A stretch of DNA of 64,000 nt from Betaproteobacteria bacterium (GTDB taxonomy: Bacteria > Pseudomonadota > Gammaproteobacteria > Burkholderiales > Burkholderiaceae_C), in the NCBI GenBank assembly GCA_009921265.1, contig RFYV01000005.1:1-64000 (forward strand), written 5' to 3'. How positions within the stretch are numbered: position 1 is the first letter of the stretch; each line of letters opens with the position of its first letter. This document shows positions 10,901 through 22,406 of this stretch, piece after piece. Position numbers and translations under genes: made by a program. A model generated the notes under the pieces. That model worked only from the letters and a program-made list of their open reading frames with translations, was not told the origin of the DNA and did not search any database.

Positions 10901-11951
10901 ATGTCGCAAAAAACAGGAAAATCAACCATATCCCAATGGCATCCACAGAAGCCATATAACGATTTGCCGCCTTTACTGCCGGCCATCGAGTTGTAAACGC
11001 GCGGGGTTCTTAAGCTGTGCATCACTGCGCGTGCGGCTTTGGCCGAGCTCAAACAAGCGGCCGAGTTGATTCCCAACCGAACTGTTTTGATCAATACCTT
11101 GCCGTTGCCAGAGGTGCAGGCCAGCTCGGAGATTGAAAACATCGTAACAACCACCGATCATTTGTTTCAATTTCAAAATGACAATTACCATGCGGACGCT
11201 TGGCCGAGCAGATTTGCGCGCGCATCAAAGGCGTGGAGATGCAGGTGAGAAGAGTGCCGGGCACCGCTTTGGCCAATCAAACCAACAGTGACATTATTTA
11301 CACACCTCCTGTCGGCCTAGCGCTTTTGCGTCAAAAATTGGCCAACTGGGAGTTTTATTTGCATGAGCAACAAGATTTGGATTCACTTATTCGAATGGCT
11401 GTTGGTCACTATCAGTTTGAGACGATTCATCCGTTCACCAATGGCAATGGACGCACAGGTCGAGTGCTCAACAGTTTGTATCTGACTCAAGAAAACTTGC
11501 TCACTCTGCCCATTCTTTATTTGAGCCGTTACATCATCAACAACAAAGCAGACTATTACCGTTTCTTATTGGGTGTGACGCGTTACAGAGATTGGGAGTA
11601 TTGGTTGTATTATTTGATTCAAGGCGTAGCAGAAACGGCGCTGTGGACCACAGCCAAAATCGCAGCTATTCGCGCCTTACATAACATGACGATTGATCAT
11701 GTGAAAAAACCGCGCCTAAAATTTATAGCAGAGAGTTGGTGGATTTGATTTTTAATTTGCCTTATTGCCGCATCCAAAACTTGGTGGATCAGGCATTGGG
11801 CGCGCGACAAGCCGCATCTCGCTACCTCAAGCAATTGGAGAGTGTGGGCGTTTTAAAAGAAATGACGTTTGGGTTGGAAAAATTATTCATTCATCCCAAG
11901 CTGCTTGGATTGCTCACACGTGACAATAACCACATTGAAACCTATGCTTGA
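10901..11951 (+). pseudogene. Broken Fic-family AMP transferase gene
   Basis: Translation in pieces gives a full Fic protein. The N-terminal part (from ATG 10901) is stopped by TAA at 10994 where relatives have a Glu codon. The same frame resumes with the inhibitory motif SSEIEN (S-x-x-x-E-N, class II arrangement) and runs into nonsense near 11190, where a stretch of about 30 codons is missing and the frame changes. The next piece has the intact catalytic motif HPFTNGNGRTGR. A further frame change in the A-run at 11718-11721, best explained by one lost A, separates it from the C-terminal winged-helix part. Three independent lesions mean it cannot give a working enzyme. Confidence 0.9.
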
Positions 11952-11999
11952 AACAAATGTTCTATTGACAGATCAATAGAACTGAATCAGCATGACGGG

Positions 12000-13286
12000 A
12001 TGAATTCAACTGTTTCTTCGCAACCCCAAACACTTGCTCAAAAATTAATCGCCAAGGCCGCGGGTCAGTCAACGGCCCAAGTGGGTGATGTGCTCACTTG
12101 CCAGGTGGATTTGGCGATGTTCCATGACTCATCCGGGCCGCGGCGTTTAAGGCCGATGCTTGAATCGTTGGGCGCATCAATATGGGATCCCAAAAAAGTA
12201 GTGTTGGTGATGGATCACTATGTGCCCGAGCAAGACGATGACGCCAAACGCATTGTGCAAATCGCACGTCAAACCGCACGAGATTGGAAACTACCTAACG
12301 TGATTGATTCCGAAGGCATCTGCCATGTGGTGTTGCCAGAGCGCGGTCATTTGCATCCTGGCATGTTTTGTGTAGGGGGCGATTCGCATTCGCCAACGGG
12401 AGGTGCTTTTGGTACTTACATGTTTGGTATTGGTGCGACTGAAATGTTGGGCGTGGTGGTCACAGGTGAAATATGGGTGCAAGTGCCGCAAACCATTCGC
12501 TTGCAATGGAATGGGCAATTGCAACAAGCCGTGAGTGCCAAAGACATGATGCTGCACATGATTGGACGGTTTGGTATGAATGGTGGGAACTATCAAGCTG
12601 TGGAGTTTGCAGGCGACACCATTTCTACATTGTCGATGCAAGAGAGAATGACTTTATCCAATATGAGTGCAGAGATGGGCGCTCAAGCAGGTTTGATCGC
12701 GGCCGATGATGTCACGGTTGATTATTTGAAGCAACATGGTGTGGCGCAATATTATCTGGAAAATATTTCGCATTGGGTGAGTGATGAAGATGCGGTGTAC
12801 GAAAAACATTTGTTTGATGCAACCACTTTGTCGCCACAAGTGGCTGCTCCTCATAGTCCTGCGAATACAAAATCTGTTACAGAATTTTTAGATGTGAAAC
12901 CAACTATTGCATACATTGGTGCGTGTACGGGTGCCAAGCTCGATGATTTGCGTGCGGCTGCATCGGTGCTTAAGGGCAAGCGTGTGGCCAATCATGTGCG
13001 ATTGGCGGTGGCACCAGCAAGTGCGCGTGAACAGCAACAAGCACAACAAGAAGGCGTGATGGATATTTTGCGCGATGCAGGCGCTGAAATTTTGCCTAAC
13101 TCGTGTGGTGCGTGTGCGGGTTATGGCATGACGTTTGAAGAAAACGCTGTGGTGATATCAACCACAGCCAGAAATTTCAAAGGTCGCATGGGTCCAGCCA
13201 GCGTCAATGTTTATTTGGCTTCACCTTGGACCGTTGCAGCAAGTGCGTTGCGTGGGTTCATCACGGATCCAAGGACGGTGATATGA
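12000..13286 (+). CDS. Aconitase/LeuC-family hydratase, large subunit
   Basis: The 428-residue protein is the large subunit of a two-subunit [4Fe-4S] hydro-lyase. Cluster ligands are visible as Cys309 (GACTGAKLDD) and Cys369/Cys372 (NSCGACAGYG); GGDSHSPTGGAFG at 126-138 is the substrate-binding segment. Relatives are isopropylmalate isomerase, homoaconitase, maleate hydratase and 2,3-dimethylmalate dehydratase. The leucine role is unlikely because no leuA or leuB is adjacent and the gene heads a catabolic run containing a malate-type lyase at 19510. It overlaps the small subunit by ATGA. The likely reaction is hydration of a substituted maleate or its reverse; the substrate is inferred. Confidence 0.85.
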   Translation: MNSTVSSQPQTLAQKLIAKAAGQSTAQVGDVLTCQVDLAMFHDSSGPRRLRPMLESLGASIWDPKKVVLVMDHYVPEQDDDAKRIVQIARQTARDWKLPNVIDSEGICHVVLPERGHLHPGMFCVGGDSHSPTGGAFGTYMFGIGATEMLGVVVTGEIWVQVPQTIRLQWNGQLQQAVSAKDMMLHMIGRFGMNGGNYQAVEFAGDTISTLSMQERMTLSNMSAEMGAQAGLIAADDVTVDYLKQHGVAQYYLENISHWVSDEDAVYEKHLFDATTLSPQVAAPHSPANTKSVTEFLDVKPTIAYIGACTGAKLDDLRAAASVLKGKRVANHVRLAVAPASAREQQQAQQEGVMDILRDAGAEILPNSCGACAGYGMTFEENAVVISTTARNFKGRMGPASVNVYLASPWTVAASALRGFITDPRTVI

Positions 13287-13789
13287 GTGCATATCGAGTT
13301 TGGCGATTGGGTCACAACATCGACACGGATGCATTGGCACCTGGTATTTACATGAAATTAGGGTTGGACGAAATTGCCAAACATTGTTTGGAGTCGGTGC
13401 GACCTGAATTTGCAAGTGGTGTCAAAAAAGGTGATGTGTTGGTAGCCGGTCCTAATTTTGGAATTGGTTCTTCTCGTGAGCAAGCCGCTGGAGTGCTAGT
13501 GCAATTGGGTGTTGCGGCAGTGATTGCACCCTCTTACAGTGGTTTATTTTTTCGCAATGCATTTAATTTGGGATTGCTATTGCTCACTTGTAAAGATGCA
13601 GAGCAAATGCAAGAGGGTGACGAAGTGGAAGTGATTCACAAGCCCGATGGCAGTATTGCTATTAACAGAAAAAATCTTGCACCATTGTCGTGTCAATCAA
13701 TCCCCCATTTTTTAATGGACATGGTCAACGCGGGTGGCTTATTACCACTTTTAAAAATGAAACAACAAGGAAAACAACATGTCGGTTGA
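13283..13789 (+). CDS. Aconitase/LeuD-family hydratase, small subunit
   Basis: From ATG 13283 (ATGA overlap with the large subunit) the protein has 168 residues, the swivel domain of the hydro-lyase. It shows NIDTDALAPG near residue 12, GPNFGIGSSREQAAG near 56-70 and YSGLFFRNAFNLGL. The loop GSSREQ instead of the GSSREH of LeuD is seen in members acting on other diacids. The longer open frame to 13226 lies inside the large-subunit gene and is rejected. It overlaps hyuB by 11 bases, so the three genes are coupled. Confidence 0.85.
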   Translation: MSAYRVWRLGHNIDTDALAPGIYMKLGLDEIAKHCLESVRPEFASGVKKGDVLVAGPNFGIGSSREQAAGVLVQLGVAAVIAPSYSGLFFRNAFNLGLLLLTCKDAEQMQEGDEVEVIHKPDGSIAINRKNLAPLSCQSIPHFLMDMVNAGGLLPLLKMKQQGKQHVG

Positions 13790-15452
13790 TGTGACGATGG
13801 ATCCAGTCACGCTGGCGGTGCTCAAAGGACGGCTCGAGCAAATTGCAGATGAAATGGACGCGACGCTTTATAGAAGCGCATTCAATCCTATCATTGCGGA
13901 AGCGCATGATGCGTGTCATGGCATTTACGACGGTCAAAGTGGTGACACTTTGATTCAAGGTAAATCGGGCTTGCCTGTTTTTGTGGGTGCGATGGCGTTT
14001 GCGGTGCGCGCAGCAATTAAAGCAGCCAATGAACGACAAGGCATGCAAGACGGAGACATATGGCTTTTTAACGATCCTTATGAAGGTGGTACGCACGCCA
14101 ATGATTTCAAAATCGTACGACCATTTTTTAGAAATGGGCAATTGTTTTGTTTCATGGCTTCTGCTGCGCATTGGCACGATGTTGGCGGTGCAGTGCCAGG
14201 TAATTACAACCCAGGCGCCACCGAGTGTTGGCAAGAAGCGGTGCAAATTCCACCCGTGCGTATTGTTCGCAAGGGAGAGATGGATGACGATGTGTTGGCT
14301 ATTTTGCGCGCTAATACACGGCAGCCCGACAGCATGTGGGGCGACCTCAATGGTCAACTCGCTGCGCTTGAATTGGGTGCGAGGCGTTTGAATGATTTGT
14401 TAGATGAATACAGCGATGCATTGGTTTTGCAATCGATGCTTGAACTGCGCGCGCGTGCTTTCAAACTCATGCGAGAGCACATCAGTGAATTACCCAACGG
14501 CACTTATTCGTTTGATGATGTGTTGGACAACGATGGTGTGAATAATGTATATCTGAATATCTGTTTGGATATGACGATTCAAAACGATCGCATGACTTTG
14601 GATTTTTCTCGCACCTCTAAAGCTTGTGCAGGGCCTGTCAATATTTCAAGGGCCACTTCAGTTGCAGCTTGCTATGTAGCGCTCAAGCACGTGTTTCCTG
14701 ATGTTCCTGCCAATGCGGGCGTGTTGGACGCTGTTGAATTTGTGATTCCTGATGGATTGGTAATTAGTGCTAAACATCCCAAGCCAGTGGGCGGTTATAC
14801 CGAAACGATTTTGCGAATGATTGATGTAATTTTCAGTGCGACTGCATTGGCCGATCCCAATCTTGCAGTAGCGCATGCTTATGGCACCATCAATGCGTTA
14901 TCGATTGCAGGTCATCGCAGCGATGAAAAACGCAATGGGCAGCGTTGGGTCATGTTTAGTTTTTTTGGCGGTGGTCATGGAGGTCATAGCCATGGCGATG
15001 GTTTGAGTCATGGCAACGCGCCGATATCAACGGCAACGATTCCACCATTAGAAATTTTGGAGGCAGCGTATCCTGTTCGCTTCACGCAATGGGCGTTGCG
15101 TGCTGACTCGGGTGGCAAAGGTCAATACCGCGGTGGACTGGGTGCAATCTACGAAATTGAAGTGTTGGAAGACGGCGCCGATGTATTTATTTTTGGTGAA
15201 CGCGGTAAAGCGTCTCCCAAAGGTATTGCGGGCGGCGAACAAGCCAAGGCCAATGTTTTTTCTTATCTCAACAATGGACAGTGGTACAAGCCACCTATGG
15301 CGAGCAAGATGATGGGGATTCACATTCAAAGAGGTGAGCGTGTTCGATTAGAAACACCAGGCGGTGGCGGATGGGGCAAGGCTGAAGATCGCGATGCAAA
15401 AGCGATAGCGCACGATATGGCGATGGGTTACATCACGGGTGACGCATCATGA
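13779..15452 (+). CDS. HyuB-type hydantoinase/oxoprolinase B subunit
   Basis: The 557-residue protein has the full length of the N-methylhydantoinase B family. Landmarks are the N-terminal RSAFNPIIAEAHD segment, NDPYEGGTHANDF near 93-105, GGGHGGHSHGDG near 394-405 and a C-terminal TPGGGGWG. With HyuA it makes an ATP-dependent hydrolase that opens cyclic amides; known partners act on 5-oxoproline, N-methylhydantoin, caprolactam and, with a third subunit, acetone or acetophenone. The gene overlaps its HyuA partner by ATGA. No third carboxylase subunit is present, which favours ring hydrolysis over carboxylation. Confidence 0.88.
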   Translation: MSVDVTMDPVTLAVLKGRLEQIADEMDATLYRSAFNPIIAEAHDACHGIYDGQSGDTLIQGKSGLPVFVGAMAFAVRAAIKAANERQGMQDGDIWLFNDPYEGGTHANDFKIVRPFFRNGQLFCFMASAAHWHDVGGAVPGNYNPGATECWQEAVQIPPVRIVRKGEMDDDVLAILRANTRQPDSMWGDLNGQLAALELGARRLNDLLDEYSDALVLQSMLELRARAFKLMREHISELPNGTYSFDDVLDNDGVNNVYLNICLDMTIQNDRMTLDFSRTSKACAGPVNISRATSVAACYVALKHVFPDVPANAGVLDAVEFVIPDGLVISAKHPKPVGGYTETILRMIDVIFSATALADPNLAVAHAYGTINALSIAGHRSDEKRNGQRWVMFSFFGGGHGGHSHGDGLSHGNAPISTATIPPLEILEAAYPVRFTQWALRADSGGKGQYRGGLGAIYEIEVLEDGADVFIFGERGKASPKGIAGGEQAKANVFSYLNNGQWYKPPMASKMMGIHIQRGERVRLETPGGGGWGKAEDRDAKAIAHDMAMGYITGDAS

Positions 15453-17506
15453 GTAAAAACAACAACGCGGCGCATTTGGTGGTGGGCGTGGATGTGGGTG
15501 GCACATTCACTGATTTGTTTGTACTCAACACAACGGATGGATCTGCGCAAATTGTGAAAGTGCCTTCAACTCGCGGTGAAGAAGCCAAAGGATTCATGAA
15601 CGGGATTGCACGCGTGCATGCCAATGCTGCTGCTGTTCGCACCATCGTGCATGGAACAACGGTGGGCACCAATGCATTGCTTGAGAGAAAAATTGCAAAG
15701 ACAGGCATCATCACCACGCGCGGCTTTAAAGATGTTTTAGAAATGCGAAGACGCGATCGTCCTCAAACTTGGGGATTGCGTGGCAGATATTCACCGATTG
15801 TTGCCAGAGATTTGCGGCTTGAAGTGGATGAGCGTATGTTGGCCGATGGCACATTGCACACGCCTGTTAACTTGAATCAAATCAAGCAAGCTGCTGCTCA
15901 ATTGATTGAGATGGGTTGTGATGCCGTGTGTTTGTTTTTTATCAACACCTATGCCAATCCATCCAACGAACAAGCAGCCGCTAAAGTATTGCGCGAATGT
16001 TGGCCTAATTCTTTTGTGACCGTGGCCAGCGAAGTGTTGCCCGAGATTCGAGAGTTTGAGCGATGTTCGACATCGGTGATTAATGCATCGTTACAACCCG
16101 TCGTGGGCAGTTATTTAGAAAGACTCGATCACGATTTACGCCAACAAGACTTTTCGGGTGAGTTGTTGATTGTGCAAAGCAATGGTGGCGTGATGTCTCG
16201 GCAAACAGCGTGTGACATGCCAGCTCGCACTGCACTGTCAGGACCTGCTGCGGGCGTTATTGCGTGCGCGGAGATTGCAAGAACGAGTGGTTATCCCAAT
16301 GTGATTACGGGCGATATGGGTGGCACTTCGTTTGATGTGTCTTTGGTTGCTAACGGACAAGCAGCACTGGCTGCGCAAACATCGATTGAATTTGGATTGG
16401 TGATTCGCTCACCCATGATTCAAATTGAAACGATTGGTGCAGGTGGTGGATCGATTGCATCGGTGGATGCGAGTGGTATGTTGCAAGTGGGTCCCGAGTC
16501 TGCTGGAAGCAATCCAGGTCCTGCTTGTTATGGACGTGGTAACTCAAGACCCACAGTCACAGATGCAAATGTACTGTTAGGTCGCATTTCAGCCGTTCGG
16601 CCCTTGGGTGGTGGTTTGTTAAATGCATTGGATGCCAAGTTATCTGAACAAGCCATCAATCAACACGTTGCAAAACCATTGGGTTTGAGCGTGCACGATG
16701 CAGCGCAAGCGATCCTCACGGTAGCGAACGCAAAAATGGCTGGCGCTATTCGTGTGGCATCGATTGAGAAAGGCCACGATCCGCGTCAATTTGCTTACAT
16801 GCCTTTTGGTGGCGGTGGTGCGTTACACGTGTGCGCCATGATGCGAGAAGTGGGTGTCACTACGGGTATCGTGCCTCGATACCCTGGTGTCACATCCGCA
16901 TTGGGTTGTGTGATGGCTGATATGCGACACGATGCGGTGCAAACACTCAATACCATGCTCAATGATTTGGATATTGAAGCGCTGCAACAGCGATTAAAAA
17001 CTTTGTCTGCTGCGTGTCAACAACGGTTGGATTCTGCAGGTGTTGAATTTGAACGCATTGAAGAGCAAATCAGTTTGGATATGTTGTATCAAGGACAAAC
17101 GCACACATTGGCTGTGACCTTGCCGCAACAAACCATCAGTCGCAACATGATTCAAACGGCGTTTGAGAGCGCGTATCAACAAGCATTTGGGCGTGTGTTG
17201 CATGGTTTGGTGATTCGTGTGATGAATTTGCGTTATGCGCGCATGGGCATTCGGCCCAAATTTGATTTGTCGGTGCTCGCACCACAAGGCAAAGGCAGCA
17301 CCGAATCTTTGGGTATTCAAAATGTATATCACGCGTCGCAATGGTGGGGCGCCAAACGATACGACCGATTGGCATTGCCCGTGCAATCGGTCATTGCGGG
17401 TCCTGCAATTTTGGAGCAAGCCGATACCACCGTTTGGTTAGAGCCTGATTTTTCTGCGCATGTCGATGCATGGGGTAATTTGATTGTGCAAAGGATTTCA
17501 TCATGA
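15449..17506 (+). CDS. HyuA-type hydantoinase/oxoprolinase A subunit
   Basis: The 685-residue protein has the ASKHA-type ATPase architecture of HyuA: phosphate-1 motif VDVGGTFTDLF near 12-22, HGTTVGTNALLE near 68-79, second phosphate motif GDMGGTSFDVSLV near 289-301, and the glycine-rich IGAGGGSIA. It would phosphorylate the substrate carbonyl to drive ring opening with HyuB. It is coupled by ATGA overlaps to hyuB before and the isochorismatase-family gene after. The actual ring substrate is not shown by the sequence. Confidence 0.9.
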   Translation: MSKNNNAAHLVVGVDVGGTFTDLFVLNTTDGSAQIVKVPSTRGEEAKGFMNGIARVHANAAAVRTIVHGTTVGTNALLERKIAKTGIITTRGFKDVLEMRRRDRPQTWGLRGRYSPIVARDLRLEVDERMLADGTLHTPVNLNQIKQAAAQLIEMGCDAVCLFFINTYANPSNEQAAAKVLRECWPNSFVTVASEVLPEIREFERCSTSVINASLQPVVGSYLERLDHDLRQQDFSGELLIVQSNGGVMSRQTACDMPARTALSGPAAGVIACAEIARTSGYPNVITGDMGGTSFDVSLVANGQAALAAQTSIEFGLVIRSPMIQIETIGAGGGSIASVDASGMLQVGPESAGSNPGPACYGRGNSRPTVTDANVLLGRISAVRPLGGGLLNALDAKLSEQAINQHVAKPLGLSVHDAAQAILTVANAKMAGAIRVASIEKGHDPRQFAYMPFGGGGALHVCAMMREVGVTTGIVPRYPGVTSALGCVMADMRHDAVQTLNTMLNDLDIEALQQRLKTLSAACQQRLDSAGVEFERIEEQISLDMLYQGQTHTLAVTLPQQTISRNMIQTAFESAYQQAFGRVLHGLVIRVMNLRYARMGIRPKFDLSVLAPQGKGSTESLGIQNVYHASQWWGAKRYDRLALPVQSVIAGPAILEQADTTVWLEPDFSAHVDAWGNLIVQRISS

Positions 17507-18105
17507 GTGACAAGCAAAGCAAATGGGGATTGATCATCATTGATTTGCAAAATGATTTTTTGCATGCCAATGGTGCTTATTCGCGCGGCAAAGCCACGAG
17601 TGCAGAGGCATTACTATTGGCCGATCGTGTTGTACCTGTTGCCAAAGCAGTGAAACAACACGGCGGCATGGTGGCCGCTAGTTTGTTTACCTTATGGCCA
17701 GATACGCATGGTGACCCGATGATTTCACCTCATCTGTTTGCCAATCGTCCTTTTTTAAAAAAAGGTGATTTCAAAATGGGTGGATGGGGTCATGCCAATT
17801 TGGATGCGATTGCGTCGCACGTCGATGTGACTGTTAACAAGGTTGCTTACTCTGCATTTTTTAACACACAACTCGATTGGTTCTTGCGTCGTGCAGGAAT
17901 TACTCATTTGGCCGTGTGTGGCATTGTGACCAATGGTGGCGTGGCCAGTACGGTTCGTGATGCACACATGCGTGACTATCACACGGTGGTGATCAGCGAT
18001 GGGTGCGCTGCGTTTTCTCACAAAATTCATGACGCTGCAATTGAAGATATGTCTACCGTTGCAACGGTGATGGATTGCAAAACTTTTATTCAACAATTGG
18101 GTTGA
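17503..18105 (+). CDS. Isochorismatase-family amidase (cysteine hydrolase)
   Basis: The 200-residue alpha/beta hydrolase has the Asp-Lys-Cys catalytic triad: Asp14 in IIIDLQNDF, Lys113 in VNKVAYSAFF and Cys139 in LAVCGIVTNGGV. The GIVTN loop carries the cis-peptide seen in N-carbamoylsarcosine amidase, nicotinamidase and maleamate amidohydrolase. Such enzymes remove ammonia or a carbamoyl group from linear amides, so its place in the operon fits a second step after ring opening by HyuAB or the deacetylase-fold protein. The start overlaps the hyuA stop by ATGA. Confidence 0.87.
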   Translation: MSDKQSKWGLIIIDLQNDFLHANGAYSRGKATSAEALLLADRVVPVAKAVKQHGGMVAASLFTLWPDTHGDPMISPHLFANRPFLKKGDFKMGGWGHANLDAIASHVDVTVNKVAYSAFFNTQLDWFLRRAGITHLAVCGIVTNGGVASTVRDAHMRDYHTVVISDGCAAFSHKIHDAAIEDMSTVATVMDCKTFIQQLG

Positions 18106-18108
18106 TGT

Positions 18109-19506
18109 ATGACAGCTGATGCACAAATTTATCGCGCATCACACATGGATGCGCCTGTTCATTCGCCCGTGGTGATTGTGGGTGCGGGTGCATGTGGACT
18201 CACGGCCGCACTAATGCTCAGACATCTGGGCGTTGATGTGGTGGTGCTTGAGCGAGACGAGTATCCTTCAGGGTCAACTGCTTTGTCATCAGGCTTTATT
18301 CCTGCCGCATCAACGCGTATACAAAAAAGCATGGGTATCCAAGACAGCCCTGAGTTGTTTGCCAAAGATATTCAATCTAAAGCCAAAAATAAATCAGATC
18401 CTGAACTCACCATGGCGTATGCCAAGGCCATCGGTCCTGCATTGGATGCATTGGAAAAAAACAATGGTTTGGTGTGGGCAGTATTGGATCAATTTTTATA
18501 TCCCAATCACAGCGTGCATCGCATGCATGCAGTGCCAGAAAAAACAGGCGATGCATTGATGACGCGTTTGCGAGCAGCTGCAGATTCTGCTGATGTGGTG
18601 GTGTTGACGCAGGCGCGTGTGAATCAAATTTGGTTAGACAACAGCAATCGGGTGTTGGGTGTGGGCTATACAACGCCAGACAATGAAACGTCAATGCTGT
18701 CGTGCGATGCGTTGCTATTGGCGTGCAATGGTTTTGGTGGAAATACCGATTTGGTCCAAGAGTTGTTGCCCGAGATGGCGCAAGCCTTGTTTGCAGGGCA
18801 TACGGGTAACGACGGTAGTGCGATTCTTTGGGGACGACAAATGGGTGCGGGCTTGGCCGATTTGGGCGCGTACCAAGGTCATGGTTCATGGGCGATACCG
18901 CATGGCGTTTTGGTGTCGTGGGCTTTGATGATGGAGGGCGCGATTCAAGTCAATAAAAAAGGTGAGCGTTTTCATGACGAGACCTTAGGTTATTCTGAAG
19001 CAGCAGTGCATGTGCTGACGCAACCCAACGCAATAGCGTGGAATATTTTTGACGATACCTTGCTTGCATTTGCACAAGATTTCCCAGATTTTGTACAAGC
19101 ACAACAAGCAGGTGCTATGAAGTCAGCAAACAGCATTGAAGAATTAGCAAGCATCATTCAATGCGACGCCAACCATTTAAAAAAAACTTTAAATGGCGTG
19201 AAGCCAGGTGCTGACGCTACAACAGGGCGAACATTCAAACGCTCTTTGCAAGGTCGATTGCACGCCATCAAAGTGACGGGTGCTTTGTTTCATACGCAAG
19301 GTGGTTTGGCTATTAACGCTGAATGTCGCGTTCTTAGTCAGCAAGGCGTTGCGTTTGCAAATCTTTGGGCTGCAGGTGGCGCGGCGCGCGGTGTATCGGG
19401 TCAAGCGGTGTGGGGCTATTTATCGGGCAACGGATTGCTCAGTGCCGTTGCGGGTGGTTACATCAGCGCGCACACCATATCACATCAACTTCAATATCCT
19501 AAGTAA
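18109..19506 (+). CDS. FAD-dependent oxidoreductase, fumarate reductase / ketosteroid dehydrogenase type
   Basis: The 465-residue flavoprotein has an N-terminal Rossmann motif VGAGACGLTAA near 24-34, then VVVLERDEYPSGSTALSSG, and the active-site segment ALFHTQGGLAIN near 386-397, which corresponds to the HTxGG motif of fumarate reductases. It ends with the FAD segment AGGAARG...GNGLLSAVAGG. This family moves electrons to or from a carbon-carbon double bond next to a carbonyl. There is no signal peptide or haem domain, so it is cytoplasmic. In this operon it may oxidise a succinate-like intermediate to the maleate-like substrate of the hydratase; that is inference. Confidence 0.83.
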   Translation: MTADAQIYRASHMDAPVHSPVVIVGAGACGLTAALMLRHLGVDVVVLERDEYPSGSTALSSGFIPAASTRIQKSMGIQDSPELFAKDIQSKAKNKSDPELTMAYAKAIGPALDALEKNNGLVWAVLDQFLYPNHSVHRMHAVPEKTGDALMTRLRAAADSADVVVLTQARVNQIWLDNSNRVLGVGYTTPDNETSMLSCDALLLACNGFGGNTDLVQELLPEMAQALFAGHTGNDGSAILWGRQMGAGLADLGAYQGHGSWAIPHGVLVSWALMMEGAIQVNKKGERFHDETLGYSEAAVHVLTQPNAIAWNIFDDTLLAFAQDFPDFVQAQQAGAMKSANSIEELASIIQCDANHLKKTLNGVKPGADATTGRTFKRSLQGRLHAIKVTGALFHTQGGLAINAECRVLSQQGVAFANLWAAGGAARGVSGQAVWGYLSGNGLLSAVAGGYISAHTISHQLQYPK

Positions 19507-19509
19507 CAC

Positions 19510-20367
19510 ATGACTGATTTTAAAAAACGCTTACAAGAAAAACGCGCAGTGCTTGCGCCTGGTGTGTACGATTCTCTCAGTGGTTTGATTGCAGAGCAAT
19601 CGGGTTTTGAGGCTTTATATTTATCCGGTGCTTCTATTGCATACACAAAGTTGGGTCGATCAGATATTGGTTTGGTAACGGCATCAGAAGTTGCGCAAAC
19701 ACTGGCGGCTTTGGCTGAACGCGTTCAGTTACCCATCATTGTGGATGCAGATACAGGTTTTGGAAACGCACTCAACACGCGGCGCACTGTATTTGAGTTT
19801 GAGCGTTGTGGTGCAAGCATGATTCAACTAGAAGATCAAACATTTCCCAAACGATGCGGGCATTTGCAAGGCAAAGGCGTGATACCTGCCAAGGAGATGC
19901 AAGGCAAATTGCGTGCAGCCTTGGACGCGCGGCGATCGAGCAATACCTTGATATTGGCTCGAACCGATGCCGTTGCTGTAGAAGGTTTGGACGCTGCATT
20001 GGATCGTGCAGAGCAGTATTTGGAGTGTGGCGTTGATGCATTGTTTATAGAAGCCTTACGAACGGTACAAGACATGGAGACTGCATGCAAACGTTTTGCG
20101 CATCGCATTCCATTGCTGGCCAATATGGTGGAGGGTGGTCAAACACCCATTCAAAGCGCAATCGAATTAGAAAAAATTGGTTTTAGGATTGTGATTTTTC
20201 CAGGTGGAACCGTGCGTGCAATTGCGCGTACATTGCAAAGCTATTACGGCAGTTTGCATCAACATCAAACCACACAACCGTGGCGCGATCGCATGTTAGA
20301 TTTTGATGGCCTCAATGCAGTGATAGGAACGCCTGAGTTGTTGCAGTTGGGTAAAAAATACGATTAA
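19510..20367 (+). CDS. Isocitrate lyase/PEP mutase-family C-C lyase
   Basis: The 285-residue TIM-barrel protein has the metal motif VDADTGFGN near 78-86 and the flexible catalytic loop FPKRCGHLQGKG near 114-125. The K-R-C-G-H loop cysteine marks a lyase (2-methylisocitrate lyase, dimethylmalate lyase) rather than a phosphonomutase; oxaloacetate decarboxylase is another relative. It would split a substituted malate into pyruvate or glyoxylate and a short acid. It lies 3 bases after the flavoprotein gene and 4 bases before the deacetylase-fold gene. Together with the hydratase at 12000-13789 it resembles the end of the anaerobic nicotinate pathway. Confidence 0.85.
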   Translation: MTDFKKRLQEKRAVLAPGVYDSLSGLIAEQSGFEALYLSGASIAYTKLGRSDIGLVTASEVAQTLAALAERVQLPIIVDADTGFGNALNTRRTVFEFERCGASMIQLEDQTFPKRCGHLQGKGVIPAKEMQGKLRAALDARRSSNTLILARTDAVAVEGLDAALDRAEQYLECGVDALFIEALRTVQDMETACKRFAHRIPLLANMVEGGQTPIQSAIELEKIGFRIVIFPGGTVRAIARTLQSYYGSLHQHQTTQPWRDRMLDFDGLNAVIGTPELLQLGKKYD

Positions 20368-20371
20368 TCCC

Positions 20372-21256
20372 ATGTCGACCGCACAATCAACCGATCACAC
20401 CATGCAACGCATCAGTTATAGCGCTGCCCCCGATCGGACCGCTTTAAAGTGGCCTCATCAAGCCAAGATAGCGCTATGGGTTGCGCCCAATATCGAACAC
20501 TACGAATACGCACCCGAAAAAATTCGTGTCCGCGATCCATGGCCACGCATTCCCCATCCTGACATTCTCAATTACGGTGTTCGCGATTACGGGAATCGTG
20601 TGGGCGTGTGGCGTTTGATGGAAGTTTTCGATCGTTTCAAAATTCCATGCACGGTTTCATTGTCAATGTCAGTTTTAGAAATGTATCCCGATATTGCAAA
20701 CGCCATGATGCAGCGAGAATATGAATTCATGTCCCACGGCTTGTACAACACCCGATATCACTGGGGGTTGTCGGCCGAAGAAGAAATGCATTCCATTGAA
20801 GAATGTCAAGCGATACACCAACGCATCACTGGGAAAAAGTTTCGGGGATGGTTTTCACCTGCGGCATCCAACACACTCAACACACCTGACTTGGTTGCAA
20901 AGGCAGGCATTGATTATTTGTGCGATCTGTATCACGACGACCAACCAACGTCCATCCATGTCAAAGAGGGTCGACTCATTTCATTGCCTTATTCGATGGA
21001 AATCAATGACAGTATTGCATGGCGCAGAGGTATGGAGGCAGAGCAATTTAAACAAAGCATTTGCGATGAGTTTGATACTTTGTACGCTGAAGGCGGTAAA
21101 GTGATGAATATTGCAGTGCATCCCTTTATCATGGGACAACCCCATCGCATCGAACAATTGGCGCAAGCCTTTGAATATATCTTTTCACACGACGGCGTTT
21201 GGTGCGCCACAGGCAGTGAAATCGTTGATTGCTATCTTCAACAGGTGAGTGTATGA
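20372..21256 (+). CDS. Polysaccharide deacetylase-fold hydrolase (PuuE allantoinase / cyclic imide hydrolase type)
   Basis: The 294-residue protein belongs to the branch of the CE4 fold that acts on cyclic amides rather than sugars. The first motif is WVAPNIEHYEY instead of the sugar-deacetylase TFDD, followed by EFMSHGLYNTRYHWG, RGWFSPA and a late AVHPFIMGQPHR histidine motif. PuuE allantoinase and, to my knowledge, the Pseudomonas putida cyclic imide hydrolase belong to this branch. There is no secretion signal, which also speaks against a sugar substrate. It is 4 bases after the lyase gene and overlaps the next gene by ATGA. Confidence 0.8.
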   Translation: MSTAQSTDHTMQRISYSAAPDRTALKWPHQAKIALWVAPNIEHYEYAPEKIRVRDPWPRIPHPDILNYGVRDYGNRVGVWRLMEVFDRFKIPCTVSLSMSVLEMYPDIANAMMQREYEFMSHGLYNTRYHWGLSAEEEMHSIEECQAIHQRITGKKFRGWFSPAASNTLNTPDLVAKAGIDYLCDLYHDDQPTSIHVKEGRLISLPYSMEINDSIAWRRGMEAEQFKQSICDEFDTLYAEGGKVMNIAVHPFIMGQPHRIEQLAQAFEYIFSHDGVWCATGSEIVDCYLQQVSV

Positions 21257-22029
21257 AAAAAATATTGGTCATTGTGCCATTTGCGATGTCACATGAAAAT
21301 TTAAATTTAAGAAAACAGCAATTGGCAGGCCTTCACATCGATGCTTCGGTGCAATTTGACTATCGACCTGTAGCAGCCGGACCTGTTAATTATTCAAGTC
21401 ATCATGACTTTGCATTGGCTGATATTTCTATTTTGCAAGCGGGGCATACTGCGCAACAAGAAGGCTATGACGCTGTTTGCATCGATACCATGAGCGATTC
21501 GGGTGTGGCGGCGCTGCGCAGTGTCTTGTCCATTCCCGTTGTGGGTCCGGGCAAATTATCAATGCTCACCGCAATGACCTTGGGCGATAAATTTTCTATC
21601 GTGACCATGGCCAGTCGCTGGAAGCCTTTGTATAAAAAAGCATTGGATGAATTGGATATGCATCGACATTGCGCTTCTGTGCGCGCGATCGAAGTGCTGC
21701 CCGACAACCAATCCTTATTGAATGGAAAAGAAGAAGATGTATTTCCTTTGCTCGAGCAAGCTGCAATTGATTGCATTGAAAAAGATGGTGCGCAGGTCTT
21801 GATATTGGGTTCGACCACGATGCATCAAGCGCATGCTTACCTATCCCAAAAACTAAAGGTTCCCATCATCAATCCTGGGCCTTTGAGTTATCAATGGGCA
21901 ATGGGTATGTTGGGCTTGAATTTGAGTCACAGCGTATTAGCCTATCCGCGGCCCATACACCATCGGCTTGAGATGCTAGACGCCATGATCCAAAGTGGTC
22001 AACAATTCTTTCAACACAAAAAATCATGA
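21253..22029 (+). CDS. Asp/Glu/hydantoin racemase-fold protein lacking both catalytic cysteines
   Basis: From ATG 21253 (ATGA overlap) the protein has 258 residues with the two-domain fold of the Asp/Glu/hydantoin racemase superfamily. The first catalytic position lies in YDAVCIDTMSDSG, where Thr79 aligns with the usual Cys; the second lies in VLILGSTTM, where Ser187 replaces the usual Cys. Cys76 is near but three residues off. Two-base racemisation is therefore unlikely. Arylmalonate decarboxylase and maleate isomerase are relatives with other chemistries. It may be an isomerase, decarboxylase or binding protein specific to this pathway. Confidence 0.75.
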   Translation: MKKILVIVPFAMSHENLNLRKQQLAGLHIDASVQFDYRPVAAGPVNYSSHHDFALADISILQAGHTAQQEGYDAVCIDTMSDSGVAALRSVLSIPVVGPGKLSMLTAMTLGDKFSIVTMASRWKPLYKKALDELDMHRHCASVRAIEVLPDNQSLLNGKEEDVFPLLEQAAIDCIEKDGAQVLILGSTTMHQAHAYLSQKLKVPIINPGPLSYQWAMGMLGLNLSHSVLAYPRPIHHRLEMLDAMIQSGQQFFQHKKS

Positions 22030-22406
22030 CACATTCAAATCCGCTTATTGCCGAGAGCGAAGCTTACTTTGATGCAGTTGACCGCATGCATTTAGATGAC
22101 GTGCTGTCTTTTTTTAATGCGGACGCAGTTTTTACAATTGCCACTCATCAGCAAATTTACGCAGGGCGCAATGATCAGATCAAAAACATGTTTGAGCGCT
22201 TGTTTGCTAGGTATGCAAAAGTTTGGCATGGTGATTTTAGGCATGTTACGTCAGAGTCGAATCAAATTGCGAGTCAGTTTACGGTTAAAAATACCGCATT
22301 CGATGGCTCTGTCAGCTTTAAAAAAAATTGCAATTTTTTCTATTTAAAAAACGGAAAGTTTTCTGAAGTATTTGTGTATATGGCAGGAGAAAATTCTCTT
22401 AAATAA
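22026..22406 (+). CDS. NTF2-like (SnoaL-type) small protein
   Basis: The 126-residue protein has the cone-shaped NTF2-like pattern: an N-terminal helix pair (ESEAYFDAVDRMHLDDVLSF), FNADAVFTIATHQQIYAGR, then a C-terminal antiparallel sheet ending FVYMAGENS. Members are small isomerases, cyclases or dehydratases without a shared catalytic residue. It is the last gene of the ten-gene run and overlaps the preceding gene by ATGA. Its role may be a spontaneous-step helper or lactone/enol handling; this is inference. Base composition becomes AT-rich toward its end. Confidence 0.65.
   Translation: MTHSNPLIAESEAYFDAVDRMHLDDVLSFFNADAVFTIATHQQIYAGRNDQIKNMFERLFARYAKVWHGDFRHVTSESNQIASQFTVKNTAFDGSVSFKKNCNFFYLKNGKFSEVFVYMAGENSLK

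Follow-up and report, generated by a model that had tools for sequence, protein, structure and literature searches.

A conserved gene cluster of Limnohabitans and other Burkholderiales with exchangeable ring-opening enzymes and a possible role in cyclic imide degradation

Nicotinate fermentation by Eubacterium barkeri uses dimethylmaleate hydratase (DmdAB) and 2,3-dimethylmalate lyase, and in the 2-methylcitrate cycle a methylated tricarboxylate is hydrated by AcnD/AcnB before the lyase PrpB releases pyruvate. Two-subunit ring-opening amidohydrolases that depend on adenosine triphosphate (ATP) are represented by the caprolactamase CapAB and the N-methylhydantoinase HyuAB, and the cyclic imide pathway of Blastobacter A17p-4 and Pseudomonas putida YZ-26 consists of an imidase and a half-amidase. 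Here we analyse ten genes at positions 12000-22406 of a 64,000-base stretch of bacterial DNA (G000:C202:1-64000, hereafter the window), which resemble each of these systems in part.

Like DmdAB and dimethylmalate lyase, the locus encodes a LeuCD-type hydratase and, predicted to act next on a disubstituted malate, a lyase of the isocitrate lyase/phosphoenolpyruvate mutase superfamily. The E. barkeri pathway as a whole was nevertheless set aside, as its middle enzymes (enamidase, hydroxymethylglutarate dehydrogenase, B12 mutase and methylitaconate isomerase) are missing from the ten genes, whereas the operon has ring opening by HyuAB, AllB or PuuE as well as a flavoprotein. In contrast to the 2-methylcitrate cycle, the proposed substrate is one CH2 longer, giving glutarate rather than succinate, the PrpB equivalog cut-off is not reached and no citrate-synthase-type gene occurs among the ten. 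The HyuAB pair belongs to the family of CapAB and N-methylhydantoinase, but scores far below the CapA and CapB cut-offs (527.9 and 281.8 bits, both cut-offs 1000) and in relatives gives way to AllB at this place in the operon. PuuE-like or dihydropyrimidinase-like imide opening and half-amide hydrolysis are shared with the cyclic imide pathway; here, however, the ring would be substituted, a hydratase and a lyase follow, and the half-amidase candidate lacks its cysteine. The cluster probably opens an imide or hydantoin ring, with hydration and C-C cleavage as the steps that would follow; a reading made earlier from the sequence alone (the sequence-only reading) had put the enzyme types in the same order. 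Tentatively, and as a possible rather than a probable interpretation, we propose that a GntR-controlled regulon imports and degrades a five-membered cyclic imide bearing a carboxyethyl group, most likely hematinic acid and its dihydro form. Hematinic acid, 2-methyl-3-(2-carboxyethyl)maleimide, is a tetrapyrrole breakdown product and a plausible substrate.

The source genome is Limnohabitans-like and of freshwater origin, with an assembly of 267 contigs and 3,563,199 bases that is 95.76% complete. All ten open reading frames (ORFs) are present (Table 1), and the earlier description of a tightly packed run of genes was confirmed, all on one strand and with junctions of -11 to +4 bases (successively -4, -11, -4, -4, +3, +3, +4, -4 and -4). 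Compared with the closest named genome, the metagenome-assembled genome (MAG) Limnohabitans sp. MAG Baikal-deep-G94 (L081; LeuC identity 96%), the ratio of nonsynonymous to synonymous substitution rates is 0.044-0.109 for all ten genes, the value for the lyase covering 176 of 285 codons, where the Baikal contig ends; all ten genes are under purifying selection. The Baikal gene order is identical, although spread over two contigs, one reaching from LeuC to the lyase (L081) and the other carrying the lyase, PuuE, racemase-fold and NTF2-fold genes (G720:C22).

In NCBIfam and Pfam searches no product of the ten genes reaches an NCBIfam equivalog cut-off, and hence none can be named at the level of tested function. 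LeuC and LeuD pass subfamily-level NCBIfam models only; homoaconitase and isopropylmalate isomerase equivalogs are reached neither by the large subunit (HacA_Meth, 388.8 of 550 bits; LEU2, 366 of 610.65) nor by the small one (HacB_Meth, 120.3 of 230; leud, 121.5 of 245.85). The lyase stays below both PrpB equivalogs (TIGR02317, Table 1; NF008455, 226.5 of 353), and no dimethylmalate lyase model is among the NCBIfam matches listed for it. Likewise, allantoinase equivalogs are reached neither by the PuuE-type protein (Table 1) nor by the AllB that replaces HyuAB in relatives (TIGR03178, 213.5 of 357.85).

Table 1. Features of the ten-gene operon and its predicted operator, in window coordinates.
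Feature	Position	Strand	Basis or remark
Palindrome GTTCTATTGACAGATCAATAGAAC	11959..11982	.	directly before leuC; TTGACA hexamer inside; predicted operator of the GntR on contig C206
LeuC-type large subunit, aconitase-superfamily hydratase (P0001)	12000..13286	+	NCBIfam NF001614, 518 bits, subfamily level; equivalog cut-offs not reached
LeuD/DmdB-type small subunit (P0002); Lys25 in short substrate loop PGIYMK	13283..13789	+	TIGR02087, 149 bits, cut-off 108.95
HyuB-type subunit, ATP-dependent ring-opening amidohydrolase (P0003)	13779..15452	+	Pfam Hydantoinase_B, 548 bits
HyuA-type subunit (P0004)	15449..17506	+	Pfam Hydantoinase_A and Hydant_A_N
Isochorismatase-fold protein, RutB-like (P0005), Gly146 at amidase Cys position	17503..18105	+	family and structure-relative searches, residue columns
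Flavin adenine dinucleotide (FAD) oxidoreductase, fumarate-reductase/ketosteroid-dehydrogenase superfamily, FAD_binding_2 (P0006), Tyr295 at place of catalytic Arg	18109..19506	+	
2-Methylisocitrate/2,3-dimethylmalate-lyase-type C-C lyase, catalytic Cys116 (P0007)	19510..20367	+	TIGR02317, 280.8 bits, cut-off 354.4; PDB relatives
PuuE-type polysaccharide-deacetylase-fold protein (P0008)	20372..21256	+	TIGR03212, 152.2 bits, cut-off 424.6; PDB 3cl6, Puue allantoinase
Asp/Glu/hydantoin-racemase-fold protein (P0009), Thr79 and Ser187 for two catalytic Cys	21253..22029	+	Pfam Asp_Glu_race; PDB 3qvk
SnoaL/NTF2-fold protein (P0010)	22026..22406	+	Pfam SnoaL_2, 41.9 bits

The sequence-only reading had taken all ten genes for one catabolic unit. 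The set is kept together in other genomes, and a check on its own proviso that the genes might not be conserved together elsewhere left the idea standing; the conserved unit, however, is the first seven genes (LeuC-LeuD-HyuB-HyuA-isochorismatase fold-FAD-lyase) and not ten. A LeuC match at E<=1e-60 occurs in 46 of 299 family genomes, and the LeuC orthologue group (at least 58% identity) in 32 of the 299, the source genome included. From 34 such matches outside the window 32 were fetched, two contig-end fragments being left out. Among these 32 family loci, in which several contigs are incomplete and all counts are lower bounds, LeuD is found in 32, the lyase in 26, FAD in 19, GntR in 25, LivF in 18 and TctC in 18; HyuB and HyuA occur together in 8, each with the isochorismatase-fold gene, AllB in 9, and HyuB with AllB in none. 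The operon is likewise present in many records of Limnohabitans and other Comamonadaceae; isolates that carry its HyuBA-type form include Limnohabitans planktonicus II-D5 (L089) and Variovorax sp. PDNC026 (L178). In 80 named loci, which overlap with the family loci (L041/L096 and L042/L108 are the same places), the counts are 77 for LeuD, 56 for HyuB, 53 for HyuA, 51 for the isochorismatase-type amidase gene (Amid), 62 for FAD, 59 for the lyase, 56 for GntR, 71 for LivF and 0 for AllB. Genes of all loci were called by a simple script, which can miss genes in loci rich in guanine and cytosine. At phylum level, 11 of 398 genomes, the source genome included, have a LeuC match at E<=1e-110, and two of them (L166 and L167, of one genus in another family) hold the whole set in the order GntR-LivKHMGF-LeuC-LeuD-lyase-HyuB-HyuA-Amid-FAD.

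Several cluster layouts were found. Type A, in Limnohabitans and other Burkholderiales, reads GntR-LivKHMGF-(TctC)-LeuC-LeuD-HyuB-HyuA-Amid-FAD-lyase. Type B has AllB, an allantoinase-family amidohydrolase, between LeuD and FAD, at the place of HyuBA-Amid in type A. In type C, PrpD and PuuE are divergent from LivKHMGF-SDR-DUF4387-AtuA-GntR-LeuC-LeuD-FAD-lyase, and a minimal cluster consists of TctC-LeuC-LeuD-lyase-GntR. On plasmid p1 of Burkholderia plantarii (L177), PuuE-PuuE-isochorismatase is divergent from GntR-LeuC-LeuD-FAD-lyase. A 1127-residue ORF beside one cluster, considered as a fused HyuAB, turned out to be a guanylate-cyclase-type protein.

The HyuBA plus isochorismatase-fold module and AllB look interchangeable, because HyuB and AllB never share a locus among the 32 family loci and because loci with one or the other are supported sisters twice on the LeuC tree (L046/L155 and L052/L070, L070 being flagged as a long branch). 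This tree has 77 rows, identical rows, three of four of L082-L136 and two of three type-C rows of L139-L160 having been omitted, and its label 'other' includes incomplete loci. It requires 10 changes of the HyuBA label, 8 of them forced by supported branches, and 8 changes of AllB, 5 of them forced. Against 500 shuffles AllB shows no reduced scatter, 143 of them being as low. In the one AllB member aligned to allantoinase 3e74 (L046), HMH, FK, LHCE, LLHLSS and VSDH are all present, the binuclear metal ligands presumably being HxH, Lys, His, His and Asp. A simple lactam usually needs ATP to open, whereas hydantoins and imides need not. The swap of an ATP-dependent HyuAB for a metallo-enzyme indicates that the two ring-opening enzymes can replace each other and suggests that the ring is a hydantoin or an imide. 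Cyclic imide hydrolases belong to the PuuE-type polysaccharide-deacetylase-fold proteins.

A further claim of the sequence-only reading, that regulator and transporter are lacking, is true of the operon's direct neighbourhood, but the genome as a whole probably has both. In many relatives the operon is preceded by a GntR regulator and a LivKHMGF importer. In the source genome, contig C238 ends in LivK-LivH, beside PuuE- and PrpD-like genes, and contig C206 starts with LivG-LivF-GntR, the GntR being of the UTRA type; the Baikal MAG has the importer genes in one piece as LivKHMGF-GntR (L202). A shared palindrome points to a link between livK on C238 and the operon: the pattern GTTCTATN{2,10}ATAGAAC, that is GTTCTAT-N(2-10)-ATAGAAC, occurs at two places in the whole assembly, before leuC (Table 1) and 42 bp before livK on C238, against none in the reversed control. 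The site in the window scores 20, compared with a best of 15 of 20 in 20 shuffles of the window. In relatives a similar site lies 15-21 bp before gntR. The looser form TTCTAT-N(0-12)-ATAGAA has 11 matches in the 2.75 Mb of sequence from the loci, which are enriched in such clusters and partly overlap, so that two of the 11 are one site in two loci; every match immediately precedes gntR, leuC or livK. A 25-base form (at most 2 mismatches) has a single match in three more genomes each, upstream of gntR in G011 and G303 and of leuC in G720, with none in the control. Of 57 distinct upstream regions in which a GntR match above 200 bits has livK next to it, 56 contain the core when one mismatch is tolerated, a count taken with no background control. 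Since the palindrome precedes both leuC and livK, the operon and the importer encoded elsewhere in the genome very probably belong to a single GntR regulon, and a pathway without a transporter was rejected. A third candidate operator of the looser pattern in the source genome (G000:C240:2541) lies inside an ORF and was taken as chance, the reversed control giving 2. A promoter scan showed no excess of promoters and none on the TTGACA hexamer, and the PDB relatives of LivK gave no hint of its ligand.

From these data and the residues described below, we infer the substrate, the order of steps and their chemistry as follows. The LivKHMGF transporter, of the ATP-binding cassette type and encoded on other contigs of the genome, would import the substrate, and the flavoprotein would oxidise the succinimide (dihydro) form to the maleimide. 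HyuAB, or AllB or PuuE in other lineages, would then open the ring to the half-amide, from which the cysteine-less isochorismatase-fold protein would help to release ammonia, the neighbouring carboxylate of the substrate possibly standing in for the cysteine. LeuCD is predicted to hydrate the resulting maleate, 3-methyl-homoaconitate, and the Cys116 lyase to cleave the product into pyruvate and glutarate, which a coenzyme A (CoA)-transferase and glutaryl-CoA dehydrogenase (GcdH) would finish. The fullest form of the proposal is a widespread regulon, not described before, by which Burkholderiales of fresh water and soil would mineralise the imide derived from the pyrroles of decaying tetrapyrroles (chlorophyll, heme, phycobilins), from hematinic acid via methylhomoaconitate and methylhomoisocitrate to pyruvate and glutarate, with interchangeable ring-opening modules and a cysteine-less isochorismatase-fold enzyme that uses the carboxylate of its substrate to expel ammonia; this form is somewhat doubtful. 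According to PMC7318184, hematinic acid is found in leaves and lake sediments, and chlorophyll is made and degraded yearly on a 10^12-kg scale. In the open-access literature that we could consult, most subscription journals being outside its scope, no description was found of this gene set, in agreement with the sequence-only reading, or of bacterial hematinic acid catabolism. In the accessible text of a study by randomly barcoded transposon sequencing (PMC12543098), the gene families are not named under the terms sought, and only 'glutarate' occurs. For the pyrrole-derived imide fragments of chlorophyll, for which the same literature yielded no description of a bacterial route, the operon offers a precise candidate substrate and product.

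The predicted product follows from neighbouring genes. On the B. plantarii plasmid, genes for a porin, electron transfer flavoprotein (ETF) beta and alpha, GcdH (735 bits to PDB 3gnc) and a succinate-glutarate CoA-transferase lie 3' of the lyase on the same strand. In L091 and L110, GcdH and the CoA-transferase lie upstream of gntR on the other strand, and L091 has a LysR-type gene in between; at the same upstream place G104 and G082 have GcdH without that CoA-transferase, and L102 has a GcdH fragment at the contig end. In these five loci the distance from GcdH to gntR is 0.6-1.2 kb. The presence of both enzymes beside a few clusters, suggesting that the lyase releases glutarate, agrees with an earlier guess at tetrapyrrole-derived maleimides. 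With glutarate as product, the lyase substrate would be R-C(OH)(COOH)-CH(COOH)-CH2CH2COOH; if R is methyl, the precursor imide would be hematinic acid, and the carbon balance closes (C8H12O7 = pyruvate + glutarate).

The hydratase and lyase carry residues that bear on this assignment (all residue counts were made on non-identical sequences, that of the window among them, which cover at least 85% of the length and exceed a bit-score limit). LeuD position 25 is Lys in 110 of 117 rows (Gln in 4, His in 2, Arg in 1), and this Lys25 could bind a distal carboxylate; the loop position is Arg in homoaconitase and hydrophobic in isopropylmalate isomerase. In the lyase, the loop K114-R115-C116-G117-H118 has the KRCGH/KKCGH form, with Cys116 in 91 of 91 rows, Arg50 in 89 of 91 and V207-E-G-G in 91 of 91, compared with T-E-F-G in 4iqd and I-E-G-G in the petal death protein.

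Several points weigh against the proposal. The V207-E-G-G sequence is like that of the petal death protein and may favour alkyl side chains. The flavoprotein is missing from the minimal clusters and from one HyuBA cluster (L179), so that it may serve an optional entry step such as oxidation of the dihydro imide, and ATP would be consumed by HyuAB although other enzymes open imides ATP-free. The palindrome was not seen before livK of L139, L166, L167 and L170. As to the glutarate genes, the GcdH name derives from PDB matches, the NCBIfam GcdH model giving 207.6 of 470 bits, and the CoA-transferases stay below the equivalog cut-off of NF052585 (542.1 of 750 on the plasmid, 472.5 of 750 in L091). 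GcdH serves other pathways too; it is present in 35 of 38 searched genomes and lies within 10 kb of LeuC in 2, where about 0.16 are expected by arithmetic, but not in the other 33, the source genome included. The common arrangement of L091, L110 and L102 may reflect a single event, and in some genomes the linkage could be chance.

Unlikely, although better placed than the alternatives that follow, are dialkyl maleimides or succinimides without the extra carboxylate (dimethyl-, methylethyl- or methylvinylmaleimide) as substrates, with a LeuCD of the dimethylmaleate type and a lyase of the 2,3-dimethylmalate type that would yield a 2-oxoacid and propionate or butyrate. The V-E-G-G loop resembles that of the petal death protein, which cleaves 2-ethyl-3-methylmalate, and LeuD falls in the LeuD/DmdB subfamily. 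Such substrates would, however, leave unexplained both the conserved LeuD Lys25 and the occurrence, next to some operons, of glutaryl-CoA dehydrogenase and succinate-glutarate CoA-transferase. According to PMC7318184, tetrapyrroles are known to give maleimides, but the leaves described there had hematinic acid, not maleimides.

That the glutarate genes are linked by coincidental catabolic clustering, the substrate being some other imported N-heterocycle or polycarboxylate amide, is improbable. The frequency of GcdH given above fits this explanation, as do the location of both GcdH genes of the source genome on other contigs (G000:C114:28605-29786 and G000:C26:1939-3123) and the finding of GcdH beside the cluster in only one of five plasmid records opened out of 13. 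Against it, GcdH has a like position, upstream of gntR by 0.6-1.2 kb and on the other strand, in five loci that span two cluster types, and it stands in line with the operon on a plasmid that has its own ETF.

For the isochorismatase-fold protein P0005, the sequence-only reading of an Asp-Lys-Cys amidase was ruled out: Asp14 is present in 62 of 62 rows and Lys113 in at least 97%, whereas the column of the expected amidase Cys holds Gly146 in 62 of 62. Cys occupies this column in all seven further isochorismatase-like proteins found in the fetched loci, one of which (L184) comes from a locus without LeuC. True isochorismatases also have Gly at that position, and a dialkylmaleamic half-amide expels its amine via its own cis carboxylate. 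Such an expulsion would make the Cys dispensable in P0005 and would allow AllB clusters to manage without a P0005-type gene. The Asp-Lys-Gly arrangement would also suit an enamide lactam (a pyridone or 5-ylidene-pyrrolinone, for example one like a bilirubin oxidation product) that is opened by HyuAB, after which acid-base catalysis by the cysteine-less enzyme would hydrolyse the resulting enamine, much as isochorismatase acts on a vinyl ether. ATP-dependent opening of a true lactam by a HyuAB relative is described in PMC6061476, and the clusters of G122 and G077 with several PuuE copies, two amidases and, in G122, a PhyH dioxygenase suggest a larger substrate. Nevertheless, we consider this route quite unlikely, as the enamine would give a ketone, which is no obvious substrate of LeuCD, and replacement of HyuAB by a metal-dependent AllB is less expected for a simple lactam.

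In the flavoprotein P0006, Tyr295 and Trp271, each in 84 of 84 rows, occupy the places of the fumarate reductase catalytic Arg and a substrate-site Glu; the former is the proton-shuttling residue, R402 in Shewanella numbering. The loss of this Arg ruled out P0006 as a fumarate reductase or flavocytochrome c. In 5 of 5 rows of the racemase-fold protein P0009, that of the window among them, Thr79 and Ser187 replace the two racemase Cys; they align to Ser sites of PDB 3qvk, which are presumably mutated catalytic Cys. With both Cys absent, an ordinary two-Cys racemase (hydantoin/allantoin/Asp-Glu) and a maleate isomerase were ruled out. Two Cys-enzyme folds, the isochorismatase-type amidase and the Asp/Glu racemase, are thus conserved here without their Cys. 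Least probable is ureide or hydantoin catabolism, in which HyuAB, AllB or PuuE would open a substituted hydantoin and removal of the carbamoyl group would deliver the skeleton to LeuCD and the lyase: AllB and PuuE are nearest to allantoinases, P0005 to RutB and P0009 to hydantoin/allantoin racemases, but the carbamoylase Cys is missing from P0005 and the two racemase Cys from P0009, the allantoinase equivalog cut-offs fail, and the amino acid left over would meet no aminotransferase or ammonia-lyase among the ten genes. Overall, the interpretation drawn from the sequence alone is partly supported.

The last three genes of the operon form an add-on that is rarer than the core. P0009 has matches at E<=1e-40 in 3 of 299 family genomes (G000, the source genome, G077 and G122) and is also present in the Baikal MAG (G720) and in G721. 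Among the fetched loci, PuuE-P0009-SnoaL stands directly behind the lyase in the Baikal MAG only; elsewhere the cluster layout is different. G077 and G122 also carry LeuC-LeuD-FAD-lyase without HyuAB (L047, L043). In G122 the order is Amid2-PuuE-PuuE, PuuE (74% identical to P0008)-amidase-P0009-PhyH dioxygenase-SnoaL, PrpD/PuuE, LivK; G077 matches it from the first PuuE on, with an unnamed gene of 280 residues at the PhyH place, and in G721 (L160, L193) the arrangement is shorter, as the third PuuE, the second amidase and PhyH are all missing. The presence of PuuE-P0009-SnoaL beside the core in these three genomes implies that the add-on belongs to the same neighbourhood in a different layout, and the lineage of the window seems to have joined it to a HyuAB core.

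The super-clusters of G122 and G077 (L181:3151-9999 and L182:3-6074) contain several PuuE paralogues, Cys-bearing amidases and SnoaL proteins and adjoin the type-C importer, with a PhyH-type dioxygenase in G122 only, as if they took apart a larger, multi-ring substrate. The B. plantarii plasmid p1 is typed as conjugative and carries its own ETF, glutaryl-CoA dehydrogenase and CoA-transferase genes; the pathway may move between species in this way. In L056 (7407-10309), LeuD and AllB are separated by an inserted thiolase-like gene and the genes of a two-subunit CoA-transferase, perhaps an alternative use of the acid product. A GNAT-like acetyltransferase gene with weak NCBIfam matches overlaps the lyase end by 4 bases in L041 (4063-4554) and L137 (14118-14615), and a gene for MsrA (methionine sulfoxide reductase) lies 3' of the lyase in six loci, for example L048:15798-16352. 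Comamonadaceae-type operons also occur in MAGs named Akkermansia muciniphila and Singulisphaera (L118, L157), whose labels or bins look wrong. Directly 5' of the operon in the window, an ORF at 11200-11748, presumably Fic-domain-like judging from its sequence, ends early, and a second short ORF precedes leuC; a disrupted gene or a fault in the assembly would account for the appearance of the region 11200-11951, and the Baikal MAG has different genes at this place.

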